From Solibacillus sp. FSL H8-0523 (GTDB taxonomy: Bacteria > Bacillota > Bacilli > Bacillales_A > Planococcaceae), in the NCBI RefSeq assembly GCF_038051985.1, contig NZ_CP150291.1, forward strand, positions 1,736,001 through 1,800,000: a stretch of DNA of 64,000 bases, written 5' to 3'. Below are positions 32,079-41,995 of this stretch, in pieces. The notes below the pieces were generated by a model, which saw only the letters and a list, made by a program, of their open reading frames with translations, was not told the origin of the DNA and made no database searches. Positions within the stretch are counted from its first letter, which is position 1. Each line of letters opens with the position of its first letter. The translations under genes and the position numbers were made by a program.

Positions 32079-32909
32079 TCACGCGTTTTTCTTTGTTCTT
32101 GTAGTTGTACGTTTTTTTCTTGTTGTCGGTTTCTTCGTTTTATCTAATGATGCCTGAAGAGCTGACATTAGGTCTGTTACATTATCAGGAAGTGGTCGCT
32201 TATCGTTTACTGTTACAGTTCCATTTCCTTCCGCTTGTTTTGCCTCTATTAATTGCATAAGAGCAGTACGATAATCATCTGTGTATTTTGTAGGATCAAA
32301 CTCCGTCGTTAATTGATCTACTAACATGAGCGCGGTCTCAAGTTCTTTTTGTACAACAGTCTCGACTCCTGGAATGTTTGGTACGTCCTTCGCATCTCTT
32401 ACTTCGTCGGGGAAATGAATGACTTCCATGACCAAAGTATTCTTATATACCCGGACAATCGCTAATTGTTCCTTTGCTCTAATCGTTATTTTCGCAATCC
32501 CAATTTTACCTGATTCCTCTAAAGTTTTTCGTAATAATACATAGGCTTTCGCACCTGTCGTATCCGGTGATAAATAGTAAGTCTTTTCGAAATAGATCGG
32601 ATCAATCTCCTCCAATTTCACAAAGTCTATAATTTGAACTGCTTTGTCTTCCGCTTCTTTACGTATATTTTCTAAGTCTTCTTCATCTAATATGACAAAT
32701 TTGTTTTTGGTATACTCGTAGGCCTTTACGATTTCCTCGTCCTTCACTTCTTTCTGACAACCTTCACATACTTTTTTGTAACTAATCGGTGTATGACATT
32801 CTTTATGGAGCTGTCTCAATTTCACATCTTTATTTTCGGTAGCAGCATGAAGCTTTACAGGGATGTTAACTAAACCAAAACTAATACTACCTTTCCAAAC
32901 TGTATGCAT
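32079..32909 (-). CDS. ku: Non-homologous end joining protein Ku
   Basis: The 276-residue protein begins MHTVWKGSISFGLVNIPVKL and has the Cys pairs CHTPISYKKVCEGCQKEV and the core FVKLEEIDPIYFEKTYYLSPD of bacterial Ku. A Lys/Arg-rich tail (KKPTTRKKRTTTRTKK) fits DNA binding. Homodimers cap broken DNA ends and recruit LigD. It is divergent from ligD with 104 bp between the starts, which is a two-gene NHEJ set as in sporulating Bacillus (ykoV/ykoU). Confidence 0.96.
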   Translation of the reverse strand: MHTVWKGSISFGLVNIPVKLHAATENKDVKLRQLHKECHTPISYKKVCEGCQKEVKDEEIVKAYEYTKNKFVILDEEDLENIRKEAEDKAVQIIDFVKLEEIDPIYFEKTYYLSPDTTGAKAYVLLRKTLEESGKIGIAKITIRAKEQLAIVRVYKNTLVMEVIHFPDEVRDAKDVPNIPGVETVVQKELETALMLVDQLTTEFDPTKYTDDYRTALMQLIEAKQAEGNGTVTVNDKRPLPDNVTDLMSALQASLDKTKKPTTRKKRTTTRTKKNA

Positions 32910-33013
32910 TTTGTCACCTCATTTTTCTTTATTATCTAGATTAAAATTATTTTTATGTATGGTAGTGTAAAAAAAACAAAAGATATTAGAAAAAATGAAA
33001 GTTGGCTTGAATT

Positions 33014-34852
33014 TTGAAACCAATGTTATTAACAGATTCAATTGAAATGCCAGTCGGGGAGGGTTGGCTATACGAAACAAAGTATGATGGGATTCGTTGT
33101 ATTTTAATCTGGGAAAAAGGGGAGCCAGCACCGGTTTTGAAAAGTCGAAATAACAACGTACTTAATGAAATGTTTCCTGAAATCCTTCGTTTTTGTGAGG
33201 CAATATATAACGAGGTTGAACGCTATTTGCCACTTATGTTGGACGGTGAGCTGGTGTATTTGATAAACGATTACCAAAGTGATTTTTCAGTTGTTCAGAA
33301 GCGCGGAAAGCTGCGGAATGGCCAAAACGTTGAAGCTAGTGCTGAATCATTTCCGTGTCATTATATTGTGTTTGATCTATTGGAATATGTGGGGAAGTCA
33401 AAAGTAAATAGCCCATTGACCGTTAGAAAGCAATTACTGAAAGAGCTATTTAATGCCCTCAACCTTCCAACTAGTGTGAAGTACATGGATACTAAACGTT
33501 TACAAGCTATAGACGTTTATAAAGACGGGGATTTACTATGGCGAAGAGTAAAATTATCAAACGGTGAAGGTATTATTGCTAAGAAAAGCACAAGTAAATG
33601 GTTGGAGTCGAAAAGGACGAAAAATTGGTTGAAGATTAAAAACTGGCGATATGTAAATGTGTTAGTAACAAAATTTACTAAATCGAACGGTTTTTTTGAT
33701 GCGGTTGTTTTTAAAGATGAAAATCTGATTGAGGTAGTAACGTTTAAACATGGATTTAATAAGGATGAAGAGAAAACGTTAATGACCCTATTTATGAACA
33801 ATGGCACATTAATAAGCAATGAAATTTGGGAGCTCCCGCCTTCAATCTGTGTATCAATTGCCTGTATTGATTTTGATGGCAATAAATTGAGGGAACCAAG
33901 ATTTCATTCGTTTCAGCTTAATGTAGATCCTAATGAATGTAATTGGCAACAGATGCAACGCCAATTACATCCGATTCCTGAAAATGTTGCAATCACACAT
34001 CCAGATAAACCGGTATTTCCAGCAAGCAAAATTACAAAAGATGATTATTTATTGTACCTGCAAAAAGTTGCTCCTTATATGCTACCTTTTTTAAAGGATC
34101 GATTATTAACTACTATTCGCTATCCTCATGGCGTACCCGGTGAGAGCTTCTACCAAAAAAATTATCCAGACAATATTCCTGACTTTGTAGCCACATATTT
34201 AGTAGAAGATACTAATTTTGCAATTTGTAACAACCTTGAAACGTTATTGTGGCTAGGAAATCAACTAGCGATAGAATTTCATATTCCGTTTCAACCATTT
34301 CCGATTGGCAAACCGACTGAGATTGTATTTGACTTAGATCCGCCTTCTGTTGATGACTTTCACTTAGCGGTGAATGCTGCATTAAAATTGAAAACCATAT
34401 TGGATCATTTTGGCCTTCAATCGTTCGTAAAAACATCAGGTGGAAAGGGGATGCAAGTGTATATTCCATTGCCGCTAAATGCATTTTCATATGAAGAAAC
34501 CGGTGTGTTTACGGAGTTTGTATGTGAATTTTTAGTTCAGCAGTATCCCCAGTCGTTTACAATTGAACGACTTAAGAAAAATAGAGGAAATAAATTATAT
34601 TTGGATTATGTACAACATAAAGAAGGAAAAACCATTGTCGCACCCTATTCTGCGCGCGGAAATGAAAAAGGTTTAATAGCCACGCCATTACACTGGGATG
34701 AGGTAACTGAGCAACTGAGACCAGACATGTTTAACATTCCGCATGTAATTAATCGAATTAATAATGTGGGGGACCTTTTTAAACATTTTAGAGATGTCGG
34801 GGAAAAGCAGGACTTTAAATCGGTTGTTAACCAAATGAATGGATTAAGTTGA
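33014..34852 (+). CDS. ligD: ATP-dependent DNA ligase LigD (ligase plus polymerase domains)
   Basis: The 612-residue protein has an N-terminal ligase domain with the nucleotidyl-transfer lysine in ETKYDGIR (about residue 22) and motif DGELVY, followed by an OB-fold part and a C-terminal primase-polymerase domain (ITKDDYLLYLQKVAPYMLPFL, the metal pair in VFDLDPP, LKTSGGKGMQVYIPL-like motif as VKTSGGKGMQVYIPL). There is no phosphoesterase domain, as usual in Bacillus. The start is TTG with only a weak site upstream; an ATG lies three codons on. It acts with the divergent Ku. Confidence 0.95.
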   Translation: MKPMLLTDSIEMPVGEGWLYETKYDGIRCILIWEKGEPAPVLKSRNNNVLNEMFPEILRFCEAIYNEVERYLPLMLDGELVYLINDYQSDFSVVQKRGKLRNGQNVEASAESFPCHYIVFDLLEYVGKSKVNSPLTVRKQLLKELFNALNLPTSVKYMDTKRLQAIDVYKDGDLLWRRVKLSNGEGIIAKKSTSKWLESKRTKNWLKIKNWRYVNVLVTKFTKSNGFFDAVVFKDENLIEVVTFKHGFNKDEEKTLMTLFMNNGTLISNEIWELPPSICVSIACIDFDGNKLREPRFHSFQLNVDPNECNWQQMQRQLHPIPENVAITHPDKPVFPASKITKDDYLLYLQKVAPYMLPFLKDRLLTTIRYPHGVPGESFYQKNYPDNIPDFVATYLVEDTNFAICNNLETLLWLGNQLAIEFHIPFQPFPIGKPTEIVFDLDPPSVDDFHLAVNAALKLKTILDHFGLQSFVKTSGGKGMQVYIPLPLNAFSYEETGVFTEFVCEFLVQQYPQSFTIERLKKNRGNKLYLDYVQHKEGKTIVAPYSARGNEKGLIATPLHWDEVTEQLRPDMFNIPHVINRINNVGDLFKHFRDVGEKQDFKSVVNQMNGLS

Positions 34853-36637: not shown

Positions 36638-37021
36638 ATGAAACTAGCTATGAAATATGTCATTCTTTACGTAAACAATTTTGAAAAGTCCATGCATTTC
36701 TACAAAGAAATTCTGAAGTTACCTGTCAAAATGCAGCAAGATACATATGTTGAATTTGATACAGGTGCAACAACTCTTTCGATAAATACGCGGCAATCTG
36801 TCAAAGAAGAAATAGGATTAAATGTCCCAGAAGCATCTAGTTCAACTCAAACTTTTGAAATTGGATTTGTTGTGGAAGATGTGCCAGCTACAATTGCCAA
36901 TCTTCGCGGACAAGGTGTACCAATTATAAAAGAACCTGTTAAAAAGCCATGGGGACAGACAGTCGCGTATGTAGCAGACCCAGATGGACATTATATTGAA
37001 ATCTGCACTTCTATTGAATAA
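36638..37021 (+). CDS. VOC-superfamily protein (glyoxalase-like)
   Basis: The 127-residue protein has both beta-alpha-beta modules ([25 protein letters not shown] and [24 protein letters not shown]) and the ending [19 protein letters not shown], with possible metal ligands in EIGFVV and YIEI. The substrate is unknown. ATG 36638 has GAGGGTG upstream; earlier in-frame starts overlap the amidase gene and lack a site. An imperfect hairpin follows at about 37040-37075. Confidence 0.82.
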
Positions 37022-37193
37022 ATTAGGCTGAATGATTCATTAGCAAACATTAACTCGATAAATGTTTGGTTAGAATAAATAAAAAATTATGAAATTTAAA
37101 TCGTGGATATATAGAACTAATTTCCATTCTCGTGTTATAATTGGATGTAGAACATAAGGTCTATTGAGTGGTAAATAAACAGGAGAGTGAAAA

Positions 37194-38387
37194 ATGAAGA
37201 GAACATCTTTGTTACAAGAAGAAAAGCGTTCAACAATACTATTTTTATGGCTATTTTATGTAGTATTTTTTGTTTATGAAATATTTTATTATAACCTTTT
37301 CCCAGCATTTCCGTGGAGCAATGTTGGTGCAAAGAGTACAGTATGGTACGATTTTATGTTTGTTAAATATGGAGTCATCATTGCGCTCATCCCTTTATCT
37401 ATTTATTTGATTAAAAAGGAGAAAACAGAATCTGTAAAATACATATTATTTTTAGGTTATTTTTCAACTAATTTATTTTCAGATATATTGTATTATAAAG
37501 ATAGTACGCTTACTTACACTAGTGGAAATCTAGTAGAACTTGTAATTATACTTTTCTCTCCAATCTTTGTGAATAAGAAATTTACATATTATATAACAGT
37601 TGGTTTATTACTGAAATATATTTTGGTTGGTATATTTATACAGGATCCGTTGGTTTTGTTTCCAATTAGTGTAATGATCGTACTATCATTTATTTCCTTT
37701 ATATTACTTCACCGTTTTTTAAATTATATCAAAGCATTGAAATACTCATACGATGAACAATTGGAGGGTATTGTTAAAGGAGTTATTGCTACACTAGAGT
37801 TGAAGGATCCGTATACTCGGGGACATAGTGAACGAGTTGCTGCATATGCAATGAATATGGCAGAGGCTACAGGGAAATTTAAACCGTCTGAATTAAATTA
37901 TTATTATTATGCCTGTCTATTACATGATATTGGAAAAGTTAATATACCGGATTCAATTTTGACAAAGTCTGGTAGATTGACAGATGAAGAATATGATATA
38001 ATTAAGACGCATCCTGTTGTGGGAGCCGAAGCTATGCGAGATGTAGATGGGGTTGCCGATAATATTGAAGTGATTTACCATCATCATGAAAGATGGGACG
38101 GGAAAGGGTATCCAGATGGACTGGCTGGGGAAAATATTCCGTTTTTAGCCAGAGTTACGGCGGTTGCCGATGCTTTTGATGCGATGACTTCATCCAGATC
38201 CTATCGCCCTGCACTTCAATTTGAAGAAGCGTATCAACGAATTCTCGATGGACAAGGGAGTCAGTTTGATCCACAACTGGTAGAAATATTTAAACAAATA
38301 TACCCAGATTGGGTGCAAATTTCTAAAATATATCGTAAAGGTATGGACATGAGAGGAGGAGAAATACGTGAAAATTCGCAAACTTAA
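37194..38387 (+). CDS. HD-GYP domain cyclic-di-GMP phosphodiesterase-like membrane protein
   Basis: The 397-residue protein has six hydrophobic segments (residues ~15-180) and a C-terminal HD-GYP domain: GHSERVAAYA, LLHDIGKVNIPDSIL, THPVVGAEAM, HHHERWDGKGYPDGLAGENIP and ADAFDAMTSSRSYRP. All metal-binding residues of active phosphodiesterases (HD, HH, GYP) are present, so cleavage of cyclic di-GMP is expected. The N-terminus may sense a membrane signal. Its 3' end contains the ribosome binding site and start of the CWWCW micro-ORF, so the two are probably co-transcribed. Confidence 0.9.
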   Translation: MKRTSLLQEEKRSTILFLWLFYVVFFVYEIFYYNLFPAFPWSNVGAKSTVWYDFMFVKYGVIIALIPLSIYLIKKEKTESVKYILFLGYFSTNLFSDILYYKDSTLTYTSGNLVELVIILFSPIFVNKKFTYYITVGLLLKYILVGIFIQDPLVLFPISVMIVLSFISFILLHRFLNYIKALKYSYDEQLEGIVKGVIATLELKDPYTRGHSERVAAYAMNMAEATGKFKPSELNYYYYACLLHDIGKVNIPDSILTKSGRLTDEEYDIIKTHPVVGAEAMRDVDGVADNIEVIYHHHERWDGKGYPDGLAGENIPFLARVTAVADAFDAMTSSRSYRPALQFEEAYQRILDGQGSQFDPQLVEIFKQIYPDWVQISKIYRKGMDMRGGEIRENSQT

Positions 38388-38436
38388 TAAAATCAAAGTT
38401 ACTTGCTGGTGGTGTTGGATCATTCCGAAAGGATGA
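38368..38436 (+). CDS. 22-residue Cys/Trp-rich micropeptide, candidate RiPP or signal precursor
   Basis: GTG start with AGGAGGA (38354-38360) at ideal distance encodes a basic N-terminal part (KIRKLNKIK) and the core CWWCWIIPKG, then TGA. It overlaps the last 20 bases of the HD-GYP gene in another frame. A terminator-like hairpin follows within 14 bases of the stop, and then a PqqD/M50 protease gene. Cys, Trp and Lys in such a short core suit crosslinked or lipid-modified peptides, but no radical-SAM or other modifying enzyme is nearby. It could also be a leader peptide for Trp/Cys-sensitive attenuation. Confidence 0.6.
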   Translation: MKIRKLNKIKVTCWWCWIIPKG

Positions 38437-38449
38437 GTAAGTACATTTT

Positions 38450-38478
38450 AGGGTGCTGTAATTTTAGCATCCTTTTTT
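38450..38478 (+). terminator. Terminator-like hairpin between micropeptide and protease gene
   Basis: AGGGTGCT pairs with AGCATCCT (one G-T) around an eight-base loop and is followed by TTTTTT. Partial read-through would yield much more peptide mRNA than protease mRNA; alternatively it is an attenuator. Confidence 0.7.
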
Positions 38479-38500
38479 AATTTATAGAGGAGGATTTACG

Positions 38501-39691
38501 TTGAAGGTATCCTTGCAATCAAAAATAACGTTATATCCGCTATCCATTCAAAAAGATAACAAACATTATATCGTGGAGGAGCCGCTTTCCGGTGATTTCT
38601 TTGAATTGCCTGAGATAAGTGTTGATGCAATCAAACGATTGGGAAAAGGTGAAGCATTAGCAGCAATAGAAACGGTACTTAAAGATGCCTACCCAGCGGA
38701 AGATGTGAATATCATTGAATTTGTGGAACAATTGGTCGAGTTAGGACTTGTTCAAAATGTAGATGGTGTGCAAGTTAATAGAAATAAAGAGAAGCAGGCT
38801 AAATCTGCATCAGATGCAGCTGGTTTCTTATGGATTCCACACTGGGTTGGACGTTTGTTTTTTAATAAAACGATGAACCTATTTTACTTGCTTCTGCTCG
38901 TATCGAACATATTAATTCTTTTCTTGAATCCAGAATTTTTTCCTCATTACAAAGATATATTCCTATTCGATTCCATGGTACTAAATATGATTAGTTATCT
39001 ATTAATATCATTGGTGTTAATTTTAATTCATGAGTTTGGGCATGTCCTGGCCATTCGATCGTATGATTTACCAGCTAAGTTAAGTATCGGAAACCGGCTG
39101 ATTTTTATTGTTTTTGAAACCGACCTGACTCAAGCGTGGAAGCTCGAACCTAAACAGCGCAATATCTTGTATCTTGCAGGCATGTCTTTTGAACAGATTA
39201 TTCTTTTCCTATCATTCGGTTTTATGCTGCTTTTTCCAGATGCAAATTTTGTCGGAATTCTTGGCATCGTCGTATTAGATCTTTTTATTAAATTTATATA
39301 TCAATGCTGTTTCTATATGAAAACAGATGTCTATTACGTCATTGAAAATGTAACAGGATGTTATAACCTAATGGAGAATGGCCAAACATATTTGAGTTCA
39401 TTCCTTAAGAAACATCGGAAATCAGGGAAGAATCATAAAGAGATGTTCCAGGATGAATGGAATCTGATTCGTATGTATAGTGTATTTTACATAGTTGGAG
39501 TCTTCTTAACTTTACTTTTAGCAGTTTTGTATTTTGTACCACAGCTCTATTACATGTTTACTACAATTTATTTAAATCTACTGGGAGTAGGAAACCGTGC
39601 AGCGTTTTGGGATGCTATGGCATTTTTTGTAATGATGATGATAATGCTTATCTTATTAGTTTATTTGGCGAGAAAAAAGGAAGTTAAATAA
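38501..39691 (+). CDS. PqqD-like domain fused to M50 family membrane metallopeptidase
   Basis: The 396-residue protein has an N-terminal ~95-residue PqqD-like part (LSGDFFELPEISVDAIKRL, then IIEFVEQLVELGLV), the fold used as a recognition element for RiPP leaders. Membrane helices follow, with the zinc motif HEFGH (about residue 177) and a second-ligand segment YMKTDVYYV (about residue 276), then more helices. The plan resembles YydH-type peptide proteases. TTG start with AGGAGG upstream. It lies directly after the micropeptide and its hairpin, and its own terminator follows, so the peptide is the likely substrate. Confidence 0.85.
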   Translation: MKVSLQSKITLYPLSIQKDNKHYIVEEPLSGDFFELPEISVDAIKRLGKGEALAAIETVLKDAYPAEDVNIIEFVEQLVELGLVQNVDGVQVNRNKEKQAKSASDAAGFLWIPHWVGRLFFNKTMNLFYLLLLVSNILILFLNPEFFPHYKDIFLFDSMVLNMISYLLISLVLILIHEFGHVLAIRSYDLPAKLSIGNRLIFIVFETDLTQAWKLEPKQRNILYLAGMSFEQIILFLSFGFMLLFPDANFVGILGIVVLDLFIKFIYQCCFYMKTDVYYVIENVTGCYNLMENGQTYLSSFLKKHRKSGKNHKEMFQDEWNLIRMYSVFYIVGVFLTLLLAVLYFVPQLYYMFTTIYLNLLGVGNRAAFWDAMAFFVMMMIMLILLVYLARKKEVK

Positions 39692-39700
39692 AAAGCAGGA

Positions 39701-39736
39701 GGCGCTTTCCTAGAACAAGGAAAGGGCCTTTTTTCA
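39701..39736 (+). terminator. Rho-independent terminator of the protease gene
   Basis: The stem AGGCGCTTTCCT pairs with AGGAAAGGGCCT and is followed by TTTTT. Confidence 0.85.
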
Positions 39737-39792
39737 ATAACTGGATAAATTATGTTATTATTTACATATTATATAGACGGGAGATAGCTGTT

Positions 39793-40752
39793 ATGGATCA
39801 AAAAATTCTAGAATTGCTCAACGGAATCTATCCAGTGGATTTTATTAAAGTGGAAGCAGTAACAAATGAAATGTATCGCTGTACCGCAACACAAGGTGAA
39901 TACTTTGCAAGAATTACAAACTACAAAAGTCATGATGAACAAGTAGAAGAGGTTACCTATACCAACTATTTACATAAAGAAGGGCTAGGGGTATCACCTA
40001 CAATCGTTTCAATTAATGGTAAAGAGGTAGAAAAGATTATCCTCAATAACAAGGAAGTATTAACGGTTCTTTATGAAGTTGCTCCTGGTAAGCACTTAGC
40101 AAGAATTCAATGGAATGCAACGGTTTTAAAAGAGTTAGGCAGGCAAATTGGTAAATTACATCGCCTATCTAGAAAATTCGAAGAGATCCATCCGACTAGA
40201 TATATCAATGATTGGTATCAAAATGAGGAATATGCTTTCTTGAAATATATCCCTGAGGAAGAAACTAAGATTAGAGCTGTTGCACAAGAAATTTTAACAA
40301 AGATTAAAGACATCCCAAAAGACAATGCCAATTATGGATTGTTACACGGGGATTTATGGTTAGAGAATGTAGTTGTAGATCAGGATTTAAAACTGACAAT
40401 GGTTGATTTTCAAGATTGTGAGAAGCATTTTTATATCTTTGATTTAGCTGTTCCAATATATAGTGCAATCGAGTATTCATTTGTCGGTGGTGGGAATATC
40501 ATTGACTATGGAAGAGGTATTACAAAAGCAATCATCGAGGGATACCAAGAAGAAAACGACATCCCAAAGGAAATGTTAGAAAAGCTGCCCTTATTTATAA
40601 AACTAAAAGAAGTCTTTGAATATAGCTTAATGCATATGTACTGGAATAAAGATAAGTTAACGGAAGAACAGATAAGAATAATGAACCACTTTAGAATGAG
40701 AATTGAAAGAGATCATTCTTTCCTTGACATAAACGGTTTGTTTTTAAAATAG
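39793..40752 (+). CDS. APH-family phosphotransferase (kinase fold)
   Basis: The 319-residue protein has the aminoglycoside/choline kinase catalytic loop LLHGDLWLENVVV and the metal Asp in MVDFQDC, with the small N-lobe VTNEMYRCTATQGEYFARI. Such proteins phosphorylate antibiotics, sugars, homoserine or thiamine; the substrate cannot be told. A relative lies at 45770. CGGGAG precedes the ATG. It begins a loose series of accessory genes on the plus strand. Confidence 0.82.
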   Translation: MDQKILELLNGIYPVDFIKVEAVTNEMYRCTATQGEYFARITNYKSHDEQVEEVTYTNYLHKEGLGVSPTIVSINGKEVEKIILNNKEVLTVLYEVAPGKHLARIQWNATVLKELGRQIGKLHRLSRKFEEIHPTRYINDWYQNEEYAFLKYIPEEETKIRAVAQEILTKIKDIPKDNANYGLLHGDLWLENVVVDQDLKLTMVDFQDCEKHFYIFDLAVPIYSAIEYSFVGGGNIIDYGRGITKAIIEGYQEENDIPKEMLEKLPLFIKLKEVFEYSLMHMYWNKDKLTEEQIRIMNHFRMRIERDHSFLDINGLFLK

Positions 40753-40864: not shown

Positions 40865-41995
40865 ATGCTACTTTTAATTGTTTTAATTGCAATTCCTTTA
40901 TATGCCTTAATCAGAATGGTTCAAAGTTTTACTAGGAAGACGCAGTCACATGATGTTGAGGGTGGCTCGGTCAAAATGAAAACAATTGATTCCTATTGTT
41001 CCATGGTTATTTATAGTTTACTTTTGCTTGGCTTTTATCTGAACGGTAGTGCCGTGGAGGCTGGTGAGCGATTGCGTGTTTTTGAATTTACTGGTGCTAA
41101 GGCAAATGGATATGCTTCTCTGGCCAATGAATATATAGTATCAGTTGTTGTCTTATTGACAGTAGGTATGTTTTCTTTTTTGATCATAAGTCTTAATGCT
41201 GGGTCTCTTTCGCCGATTTTGTATGTGATAGGTAGTACATTAATGATATCTAATATCCTATTTGCAGTTGCCTATCTTACTCATACAGGCTTTTCACACG
41301 ATGGTGATGAATATTCGGTCCTCCTTCTGCAAATTAGCTTTGTATCACTATTTTTCTTATATATCGCAAGGTTGAAAGATTCCCTGAATCATTTTCTTAT
41401 TAGCCAAAATGAAAAAGAGGTGGAGTACAGCAATAAATTTATGCTATTTCTCTACAAAATATCTAGCAACTATCAACAGATGTCAAAAGTATGGGCAATA
41501 TGTTTATTTCCAGTCTTGGTCATCATCCAGCTGATTTTGGTCTTGTTTGGCCAACGCCCAGATAGCTTTATCCGCATGTTCCTTGAGACAAGCTCTTTCA
41601 ACTATTCGAATATTCCTGCGCCTAAACCAGAAATAGTACAGGCTGATGGGCATTATTTGTGTACGGTCTCCGCTAAGGGGCATAAAAAATTGGTCAAACC
41701 AATCAGAGCGGGCATTAGAAGCGGATTAAGAATCCCCGTGAACCGCCAGCTGCTGATTGCTAATGCATTTGAAAACATTCTAGAACAATATATGCCAGCC
41801 TTCCATAAAGTCATCCGTAATTTTTACGATCGATATGGCTATCCAATAAGTAGGCATATCAATTCAAAATGGTCCGCAGACGTCATGTACCTTTTAATGA
41901 AGCCTTTAGAATGGTTCTTCCTTGTTGTGCTATATACGGTAGACAAAAAACCGGAAAATAGAATTCATATGCAATATAGTGAGTTGAGAAAGTAA
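40865..41995 (+). CDS. Polytopic membrane protein, DUF6688-like
   Basis: The 376-residue protein has about seven hydrophobic segments and a soluble C-terminal part with GHYLCTVSAKGHKKLVKPIR and IPVNRQLLIANAFENILEQY, which I recognise as the conserved block of a Bacillus family of unknown function (DUF6688). A GGAAGGAGG site lies 15 bases upstream of the ATG, longer than usual. No role is known. Confidence 0.65.
   Translation: MLLLIVLIAIPLYALIRMVQSFTRKTQSHDVEGGSVKMKTIDSYCSMVIYSLLLLGFYLNGSAVEAGERLRVFEFTGAKANGYASLANEYIVSVVVLLTVGMFSFLIISLNAGSLSPILYVIGSTLMISNILFAVAYLTHTGFSHDGDEYSVLLLQISFVSLFFLYIARLKDSLNHFLISQNEKEVEYSNKFMLFLYKISSNYQQMSKVWAICLFPVLVIIQLILVLFGQRPDSFIRMFLETSSFNYSNIPAPKPEIVQADGHYLCTVSAKGHKKLVKPIRAGIRSGLRIPVNRQLLIANAFENILEQYMPAFHKVIRNFYDRYGYPISRHINSKWSADVMYLLMKPLEWFFLVVLYTVDKKPENRIHMQYSELRK

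Follow-up and report, generated by a model that had tools for sequence, protein, structure and literature searches.

Short peptides processed by a membrane protease and read by a multi-helix membrane sensor occur in two-component peptide pheromone systems such as agr, and epipeptide loci (epeXEPAB) encode a radical S-adenosylmethionine (SAM) epimerase and an ATP-binding cassette (ABC) transporter. A locus that invites comparison with both lies in the 64,000-nucleotide stretch analyzed here (hereafter the window; positions 1736001–1800000 of the 4.14 Mb single-contig genome of Solibacillus sp. FSL H8-0523). In this locus, a MASE12-HD-GYP gene, a CWWC micropeptide gene, a hairpin, and the gene of a site-2 protease with an N-terminal RRE (recognition element of ribosomally synthesized and post-translationally modified peptides, RiPPs) follow one another in that order, all on the + strand. 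The arrangement looks like an undescribed peptide signaling system of bacilli.

The locus shares with agr a short peptide, a membrane protease that may process it, and a predicted membrane sensor, and some related loci possess a MASE12 histidine kinase; unlike agr, the main receptor output would be an HD-GYP phosphodiesterase, and no relation between the MASE12 and AgrC sensors is indicated. The epipeptide system EpeX/EpeP (yydF-type, Bacilli) likewise comprises a short ribosomal peptide adjoining an intramembrane M50 protease, and the available text of PMC10885120 presents EpeP as the presumed enzyme for both cleavage and export of that peptide. The present locus, in contrast, displays MASE12-HD-GYP in place of a conserved epimerase or ABC transporter, neither of which is conserved in position at 39 related loci; an epipeptide (YydF/EpeX) assignment was rejected on these grounds. 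TMcin (TmcA/TmcP) is comparable in that a site-2 clan protease cuts a precursor at the membrane and the conserved Cys pair of TMcin forms a disulfide, but the leader of the TMcin precursor is 45 residues long, the precursor includes a transmembrane helix, and the locus encodes a DUF3267 protease together with DsbA-like and ABC proteins (PMC13252029, available part). A TMcin-type DUF3267 (PF11667) protease was also rejected, being absent among the 14 Pfam families matched by 32 members of the present protease family (E ≤ 1), a list headed by M50 and PqqD. On the receptor side, BDSF-RpfR and the AI-2 receptors appear under quorum signals in a published census of cyclic di-GMP sensing, and both BDSF-RpfR and AI-2-dCACHE exemplify a cell-to-cell signal read by a cyclic di-GMP enzyme (PMC8846402). 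Their ligands, unlike the candidate considered here, are a small fatty acid or AI-2, sensed by PAS or dCACHE domains, and the accessible part of that census names no ribosomal peptide signal.

The micropeptide gene (38368–38436, + strand) has a GTG start and a TGA stop and encodes the 22-residue product VKIRKLNKIKVTCWWCWIIPKG, composed of a basic leader (KIRKLNKIKVT), the core CWWC, and a variable tail (WIIPKG). An initial annotation made from the DNA letters had described a 22-residue micro-ORF (open reading frame) with a CWWCW core that overlaps the HD-GYP gene, exactly as found; the overlap amounts to 20 nucleotides. The Shine-Dalgarno sequence AGGAGG (38354–38359, + strand) resides within the end of the HD-GYP gene, 8 nucleotides 5′ of the GTG. 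Ranking this ribosome binding site among the strongest in the window was fair insofar as its longest anti-Shine-Dalgarno match is 6, the same as that of the protease gene, but the site is not unique: 13 micro-ORFs of 15–40 residues in the window, including this one, reach 6 in a Shine-Dalgarno scan.

Conservation and codon usage indicate that the micro-ORF is a real gene. A peptide homologue is located 5′ of the protease gene in all 53 distinct loci from all sources, a count in which duplicates were not included again (L003, L005, L006, L090, and L092 equal L027, L028, L029, L062, and L052; L087 equals L013; L001 and L091 correspond to the window). The consensus reads MKIRKL-K/N-K-I/V-K-x-T-C-W-W-C, followed by three to eight variable, mostly hydrophobic residues, for a precursor length of 19–24 residues. 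Leu6, Thr12, Cys13, Trp15, and Cys16 are invariant in 50 sequences, with Trp14 replaced by Phe in four and by Tyr in one; the one insertion seen, in L052, places two extra residues between the leader and CWWC. Pairwise comparison of 50 of the 51 distinct sequences (L052 being left out for its insertion) gave 5118 synonymous and 1140 nonsynonymous single-base differences, which are pairwise counts and not independent events; 82% are thus synonymous versus 17% expected at random. The omega-like ratio is 0.047, and variability averages 0.11, 0.07, and 0.40 at the first, second, and third codon positions. No family model matched these genes of roughly 20 codons. When the peptide core was searched for as a DNA pattern, the matches fell in exactly the 13 genomes with the protease among 37 near genomes (the window's own genome plus its genus and family, a subset of 61 related genomes), and the reversed control pattern matched one of the 37. 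The initial annotation had offered conservation in related loci and frame-respecting substitutions as checks on its proposal, and both came out in its favor.

The protease gene (38501–39691, + strand; 396 residues, TTG start) combines a PqqD-fold N-terminus with an M50 domain. This identity, likewise proposed initially, was borne out by Pfam matches across the family and by the predicted fold: the window protein by itself scores 17.8 bits against the M50 model, under the 27.2 cut-off, and does not match PqqD, whereas at E ≤ 1 all 32 family members tested match M50 and eight match PqqD. In the predicted structure (mean pLDDT, the predicted local distance difference test score, 83.2), residues 7–89 (RRE domain, 38519–38767) align with 6jx3 (Z 10.6, root-mean-square deviation (rmsd) 2.4, 80 residues aligned) and 5v1v (Z 10.6, rmsd 2.8, 83 aligned), two lasso B1 RREs solved together with leader peptides. 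Foldseek also ranked RREs first, at a probability of 1.00 but an E-value of 0.05, with nothing at E ≤ 0.001. The N-terminus is accordingly modeled as a winged-helix RRE. The site-2 protease core (residues 157–350, 38969–39550) aligns in the model with SpoIVFB (Z 8.9, rmsd 3.8, 134 aligned) and RseP (Z 8.7, rmsd 4.8, 161 aligned). H177, E178, G180, H181, and D276 are invariant in 32 of 32 aligned family sequences, which places an HEFGH motif at 39029–39043 and Asp276, which we take from site-2 protease anatomy to be the third zinc ligand, at 39326–39328. Model and sequence together suggest an intramembrane HExxH zinc protease complete with this third ligand. A search of PDB sequences with the protease profile retrieved nothing meaningful (best E 0.1), and the daptide protease model NF041824 was discarded (9.7 versus a 300-bit cut-off).

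The protease was present in 13 of the 61 related genomes, and the protease alignment, run against named bacterial genomes, retrieved 38 loci from Solibacillus, Ureibacillus, Sporosarcina, Oceanobacillus, Virgibacillus, Gracilibacillus, Ornithinibacillus, Lentibacillus, Aquibacillus, Alkalihalobacterium, Neobacillus, and Bacillus, among others.

The third component is encoded by the MASE12-HD-GYP gene (37194–38387, + strand; 397 residues; Pfam MASE12 E 7e-65, HD_5 4.7e-39). Its MASE12 domain, which has a Pfam entry and is the candidate peptide receptor (Pfam residues 8–173, 37215–37712), is modeled as six helices (2–35, 49–74, 78–102, 113–125, 128–149, and 152–204), from which a location in the membrane is likely. 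The HD-GYP model aligns with PA4781 (4r8z; Z 27.5, rmsd 1.9, 203 aligned) and with 4mcw (Z 26.4, rmsd 2.0, 197 aligned), and H244, D245, H297, H298, D302, G303, G305, Y306, and P307 are invariant in 38 HD-GYP sequences. With the HD and GYP motifs and the predicted fold intact, the protein should degrade cyclic di-GMP.

Co-occurrence of the three genes is strict. A MASE12-HD-GYP gene is found just 5′ of the peptide gene in all 52 readable loci, overlapping it in 32; the count is 52 and not 53 because the sequence of L032 starts inside the HD-GYP gene, leaving MASE12 unreadable there. MASE12, peptide, and protease mark the identical 13 of the 37 near genomes. In a class-wide sample, MASE12 was detected in nine of 398 genomes, and the same nine possess a top-tier protease (E ≤ 1.5e-148); for 29 other genomes of the class lacking MASE12, the best protease-profile E-values range from 1e-73 to 1e-9. 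A peptide pattern with an ATG start matched seven of the 398, all among the nine MASE12 genomes, and the two missed have a GTG start (the window's own genome) or Asn2 (G035). Neither of two peptide patterns revealed an orphan peptide in the 37 near genomes or the 398 class genomes, and no protease gene of the top-tier type was found without a peptide, a combination that would have spoken against the initial proposal. MASE12 is also rare further afield, being confined to the window's own genome in a phylum-wide sample of 299. We regard it as close to certain that peptide, protease, and MASE12-HD-GYP constitute a three-part module.

The company kept by MASE12 also bears on its role. A second MASE12 protein, a histidine kinase, is encoded beside the module in six loci (L056, L057, L059, L064, G127, and G280); four of these kinase genes lie upstream of it, one lies downstream, and one is divergent. 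MASE12 histidine kinase genes were recorded at L056 7191–8495, L057 193–1809 (minus strand), L059 7036–8307, L064 9930–11216, L130 4483–5763, and L131 4366–5649, the L057 kinase also bearing a PAS domain. Because these kinases adjoin the module, the common part of the two output types is the sensor, and a swap of the sensor between outputs within one locus type is expected if MASE12 recognizes the module's own product. Furthermore, a GGDEF (diguanylate cyclase) gene lies directly 5′ of MASE12-HD-GYP in L031 (7262–7906), L038 (7961–8611), L039 (7951–8601), L046 (2336–3016), L048 (7994–8632), L055 (1643–2284), and G035 (C1:3264242–3264700); the host genome of the window has 19 GGDEF matches. Kinases and GGDEF neighbors together suggest that MASE12 reads the signal and that cyclic di-GMP is one of the outputs. 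The link to cyclic di-GMP, suggested initially from the gene overlap, is supported both by the strict co-occurrence with MASE12-HD-GYP and by the GGDEF neighbor of some species.

Related RRE-M50 proteins of a second tier are accompanied by micropeptides of their own. The second-tier protein of L127 shares 27% identity with that of the window over 378 columns. These genes follow a ThiF-type adenylyltransferase, recognized by family search in two loci and by similar neighboring genes in others, and micropeptides such as MKIQAKKVESVRTTAVAA are encoded 5′ of the ThiF-type gene. Second-tier peptides of 18–30 residues, mostly starting MKI or MKKI, occur in L124 (5214–5503), L128 (5469–5525), L143 (eight copies), L137, L134, L144, L150, and L152, among others. 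An MKI-type pattern with a ribosome-site filter, composed after examples had been seen, gave 23 matches on the protease strand (97 kb searched), which fell in 13 of 20 loci and left seven with none, as compared with none on the opposite strand and one match in 1.49 Mb of other flanks (both strands). Peptides similar by eye in L148 and L151 fall outside the count of 13. Six second-tier peptides were tested and matched no NCBIfam model. These RRE-ThiF and RRE-M50 loci thus resemble the module in their homologous protease and short peptides; the module differs in having MASE12 instead of a ThiF-type adenylyltransferase and in CWWC, which none of the second-tier peptides seen contains, most being without Cys. 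What is seen is the pairing, and homology between the CWWC and second-tier leaders is not part of the claim. That RRE-M50 proteases are often paired with short MKI-type peptides supports recognition of a leader.

Between the peptide and protease genes stands a terminator-like hairpin with a T-run (38450–38478, + strand; dG −14.1 kcal/mol, z −3.67). The family hairpin consists of AGGATGCTA, a loop, and TAGCATCCT, followed by the T-run; the window displays the variant AGGGTGCTG-(6)-TAGCATCCT, with the stem-loop at 38450–38473. An alignment of 35 of the 53 loci revealed that the stem sequence itself is kept across the family, not its pairing alone. A loose stem pattern matches 50 of the 53, although in the longest spacers this could be chance; L050, L054, and L093 carry other sequences, which are still paired in L050 and L054. 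The exact stem pattern was found at eight places in seven of 13 genomes, seven of the eight inside the module, and was found neither in five module-less genomes nor in the window's genome with its variant stem. Simple termination would not require the sequence itself to be preserved, so a further role of the hairpin is possible. MASE12 as the probable receptor, the MASE12 histidine kinases, this conserved hairpin, and the second-tier RRE-M50 micropeptides all go beyond the initial annotation.

Taken as a self-contained peptide-signal module, the locus would operate as follows. The micro-ORF would yield a precursor of 19–24 residues, in which the conserved basic leader MKIRKLKKIKxT is followed by CWWC and the C-terminal tail, and the hairpin, acting as an attenuator, would favor peptide over protease. 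The RRE domain of the protease may capture the leader, whereupon the site-2 protease part would cut the peptide at the membrane and possibly also release the tail outside, in which case a separate exporter is unneeded. The mature CWWC tail, which may be unmodified or carry a disulfide, would be read by MASE12 in or at the membrane, and HD-GYP activity, and with it the cellular cyclic di-GMP level, would presumably be raised or lowered; in some species a MASE12 histidine kinase would read the same signal. We give the full chain, from leader capture through cutting and release to MASE12 sensing and HD-GYP output, an even chance. A bolder version is put forward tentatively, as plausible but short of even: that the CWWC micropeptide is unmodified and, released by the RRE-guided site-2 protease, serves as the MASE12 ligand of a new class of cell-to-cell signaling, with the HD-GYP phosphodiesterase as the main receptor, kinase versions in some species, and the whole as one branch of wider, unnamed RRE-M50 micropeptide systems.

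Several observations weigh against this scheme. Translation, cleavage, secretion, and binding are all inferred from sequence. The 38-locus scan used two short exact protease motifs, so its loci lean toward close relatives, and the class searches scored at most eight MASE12 and four protease candidates per genome. Alignments to site-2 proteases reach moderate Z-scores (8.9 and 8.7), and a 22-residue peptide with no long hydrophobic stretch is an unusual substrate for such an enzyme. In the PDB comparison, MASE12 was barely covered, one domain filling the list, and a ligand class was not indicated. No exporter is conserved near the 39 loci. Across the 29 loci common to both alignments, tail variation shows a partial correlation of 0.083 with MASE12 (96 of 1000 permutations as high), as against 0.167 with HD-GYP (8 of 1000) and 0.184 with one membrane segment of the protease (3 of 1000); the idea that the tail coevolves with MASE12 was dropped as not specific, other segments correlating more highly. 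The faster divergence of MASE12 (mean identity 0.45 versus 0.72 for HD-GYP) is not diagnostic either, because the protease membrane segments diverge equally (0.43–0.45). The invariant Thr-Cys and the little-changed CWWC are compatible with metal or redox binding as well, and one module-bearing genome, G035, has a SPASM match above cut-off.

That last match bears on a different view, in which the peptide is a RiPP or small antimicrobial whose Cys or Trp residues are modified by an enzyme from another part of the genome. The RRE-M50 protease would release it to act on other cells, and MASE12-HD-GYP and the MASE12 kinases would sense envelope stress or report on production. RRE domains and M50 proteases do occur in RiPP loci, judging from the fold and from the available literature text; CWWC could bear thioether or Trp cross-links; and the related RRE-M50 loci have a ThiF-type adenylyltransferase. 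The locus has a conserved leader and, next to it, a predicted RRE fold that might recognize this leader. The flanks of 39 loci, however, contain no maturase, modifying enzyme, exporter, immunity, or transporter gene at a conserved position: HD-GYP and protease clusters occur in 39 of 39 each, and no other ORF cluster exceeds 14, at scattered positions. The initial remark that no radical SAM enzyme, cyclodehydratase, or exporter is nearby agrees with this. Genome-wide, the enzyme types sought were SPASM and YcaO, in 18 genomes made up of 16 of the genus and two neighbors (G035 and G017). SPASM radical SAM proteins above cut-off are absent from all 16 genus genomes, each of which has a sub-cut-off match whether the module is present or not, and from G017, which lacks the module; YcaO is absent from all 18. 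A SPASM or YcaO maturase encoded elsewhere was rejected, as neither tracks with the module (SPASM above cut-off in one of 18). On balance, we consider a modified or antimicrobial peptide rather unlikely.

An intracellular, membrane-associated regulator or cofactor carrier, such as a CxxC redox or metal sensor that is not secreted and binds the RRE-M50 and MASE12 proteins directly, would accommodate the basic leader, the invariant Cys pair, the strict co-occurrence, and the lack of an exporter. The tail, however, differs among loci in both length and sequence, and the L052 insertion falls ahead of CWWC, as expected for a leader plus released product, and the protease retains HExxH and Asp; this alternative appears unlikely. 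Leader-peptide attenuation, in which translation through Trp/Cys codons or ribosome arrest controls hairpin read-through into the protease gene, draws on the terminator-like hairpin with its T-run 3′ of the ORF and on the tandem Trp codons. Yet amino-acid selection spans the whole leader, Trp14 is Phe or Tyr in five of 50 sequences, a Trp in the tail is optional, and nothing evident connects the downstream gene with Trp or Cys metabolism. The RRE domain and the MASE12 link are left unexplained as well. Folding of the window sequence keeps the hairpin in a longer transcript, and Trp-codon attenuation is disfavored by this persistence and by the codon constraint, making the explanation quite improbable. 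A pearlin-like scaffold, where the peptide end would serve as the assembly site of a small molecule that an M50 protease then cuts off, as the membrane enzymes TglG and TmoG do (PMC10885120, available text), is highly improbable, there being no ligase or modifying gene linked in the 39 loci and the conserved CWWC being internal and not at the peptide end.

Elsewhere in the window, Pfam assigned the neighbors examined to amidase, glyoxalase, MASE12-HD-GYP, APH, and DUF6688. The DUF6688 protein, with both Pfam domains, is encoded at 40865–41995, two genes 3′ of the module, and no conserved link to the module was seen. At 32079–34852, sequence features suggest a divergent gene pair, presumably for Ku (minus strand) and a LigD-type DNA ligase. 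Rfam gave no match at E ≤ 1 over 37000–40000, and no promoter motif was evident by eye in the sequences compared upstream of HD-GYP genes.

No description of the peptide-protease-MASE12 module was found in the literature searched, mostly outside subscription journals, nor any publication on the RRE-ThiF and RRE-M50 micropeptide loci, and the peptide sequence strings had no literature match. The term MASE12 retrieved only Alteromonas locus tags (MASE_12160 and the like) and an image-processing paper, in the portions of these texts that are available. Similarly, the available portions of two RRE surveys (PMC7470986 and PMC12710340), of a paper on an RRE and signal-peptidase LPP family (PMC13381572), and of two ThiF papers (PMC12150305 and PMC12250964) do not mention the module.

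If the proposed chain holds, this would be, so far as the literature searched shows, the first ribosomal peptide pheromone wired directly into a cyclic di-GMP enzyme. The locus gives MASE12 a specific ligand candidate, and genes of about 20 codons that family models fail to match can be found through their pairing with RRE-M50 proteases. Cyclic di-GMP is a switch between moving and settling; were the CWWC peptide the MASE12 ligand, bacilli would possess a peptide signal acting directly on cyclic di-GMP, without a transcription factor in between.

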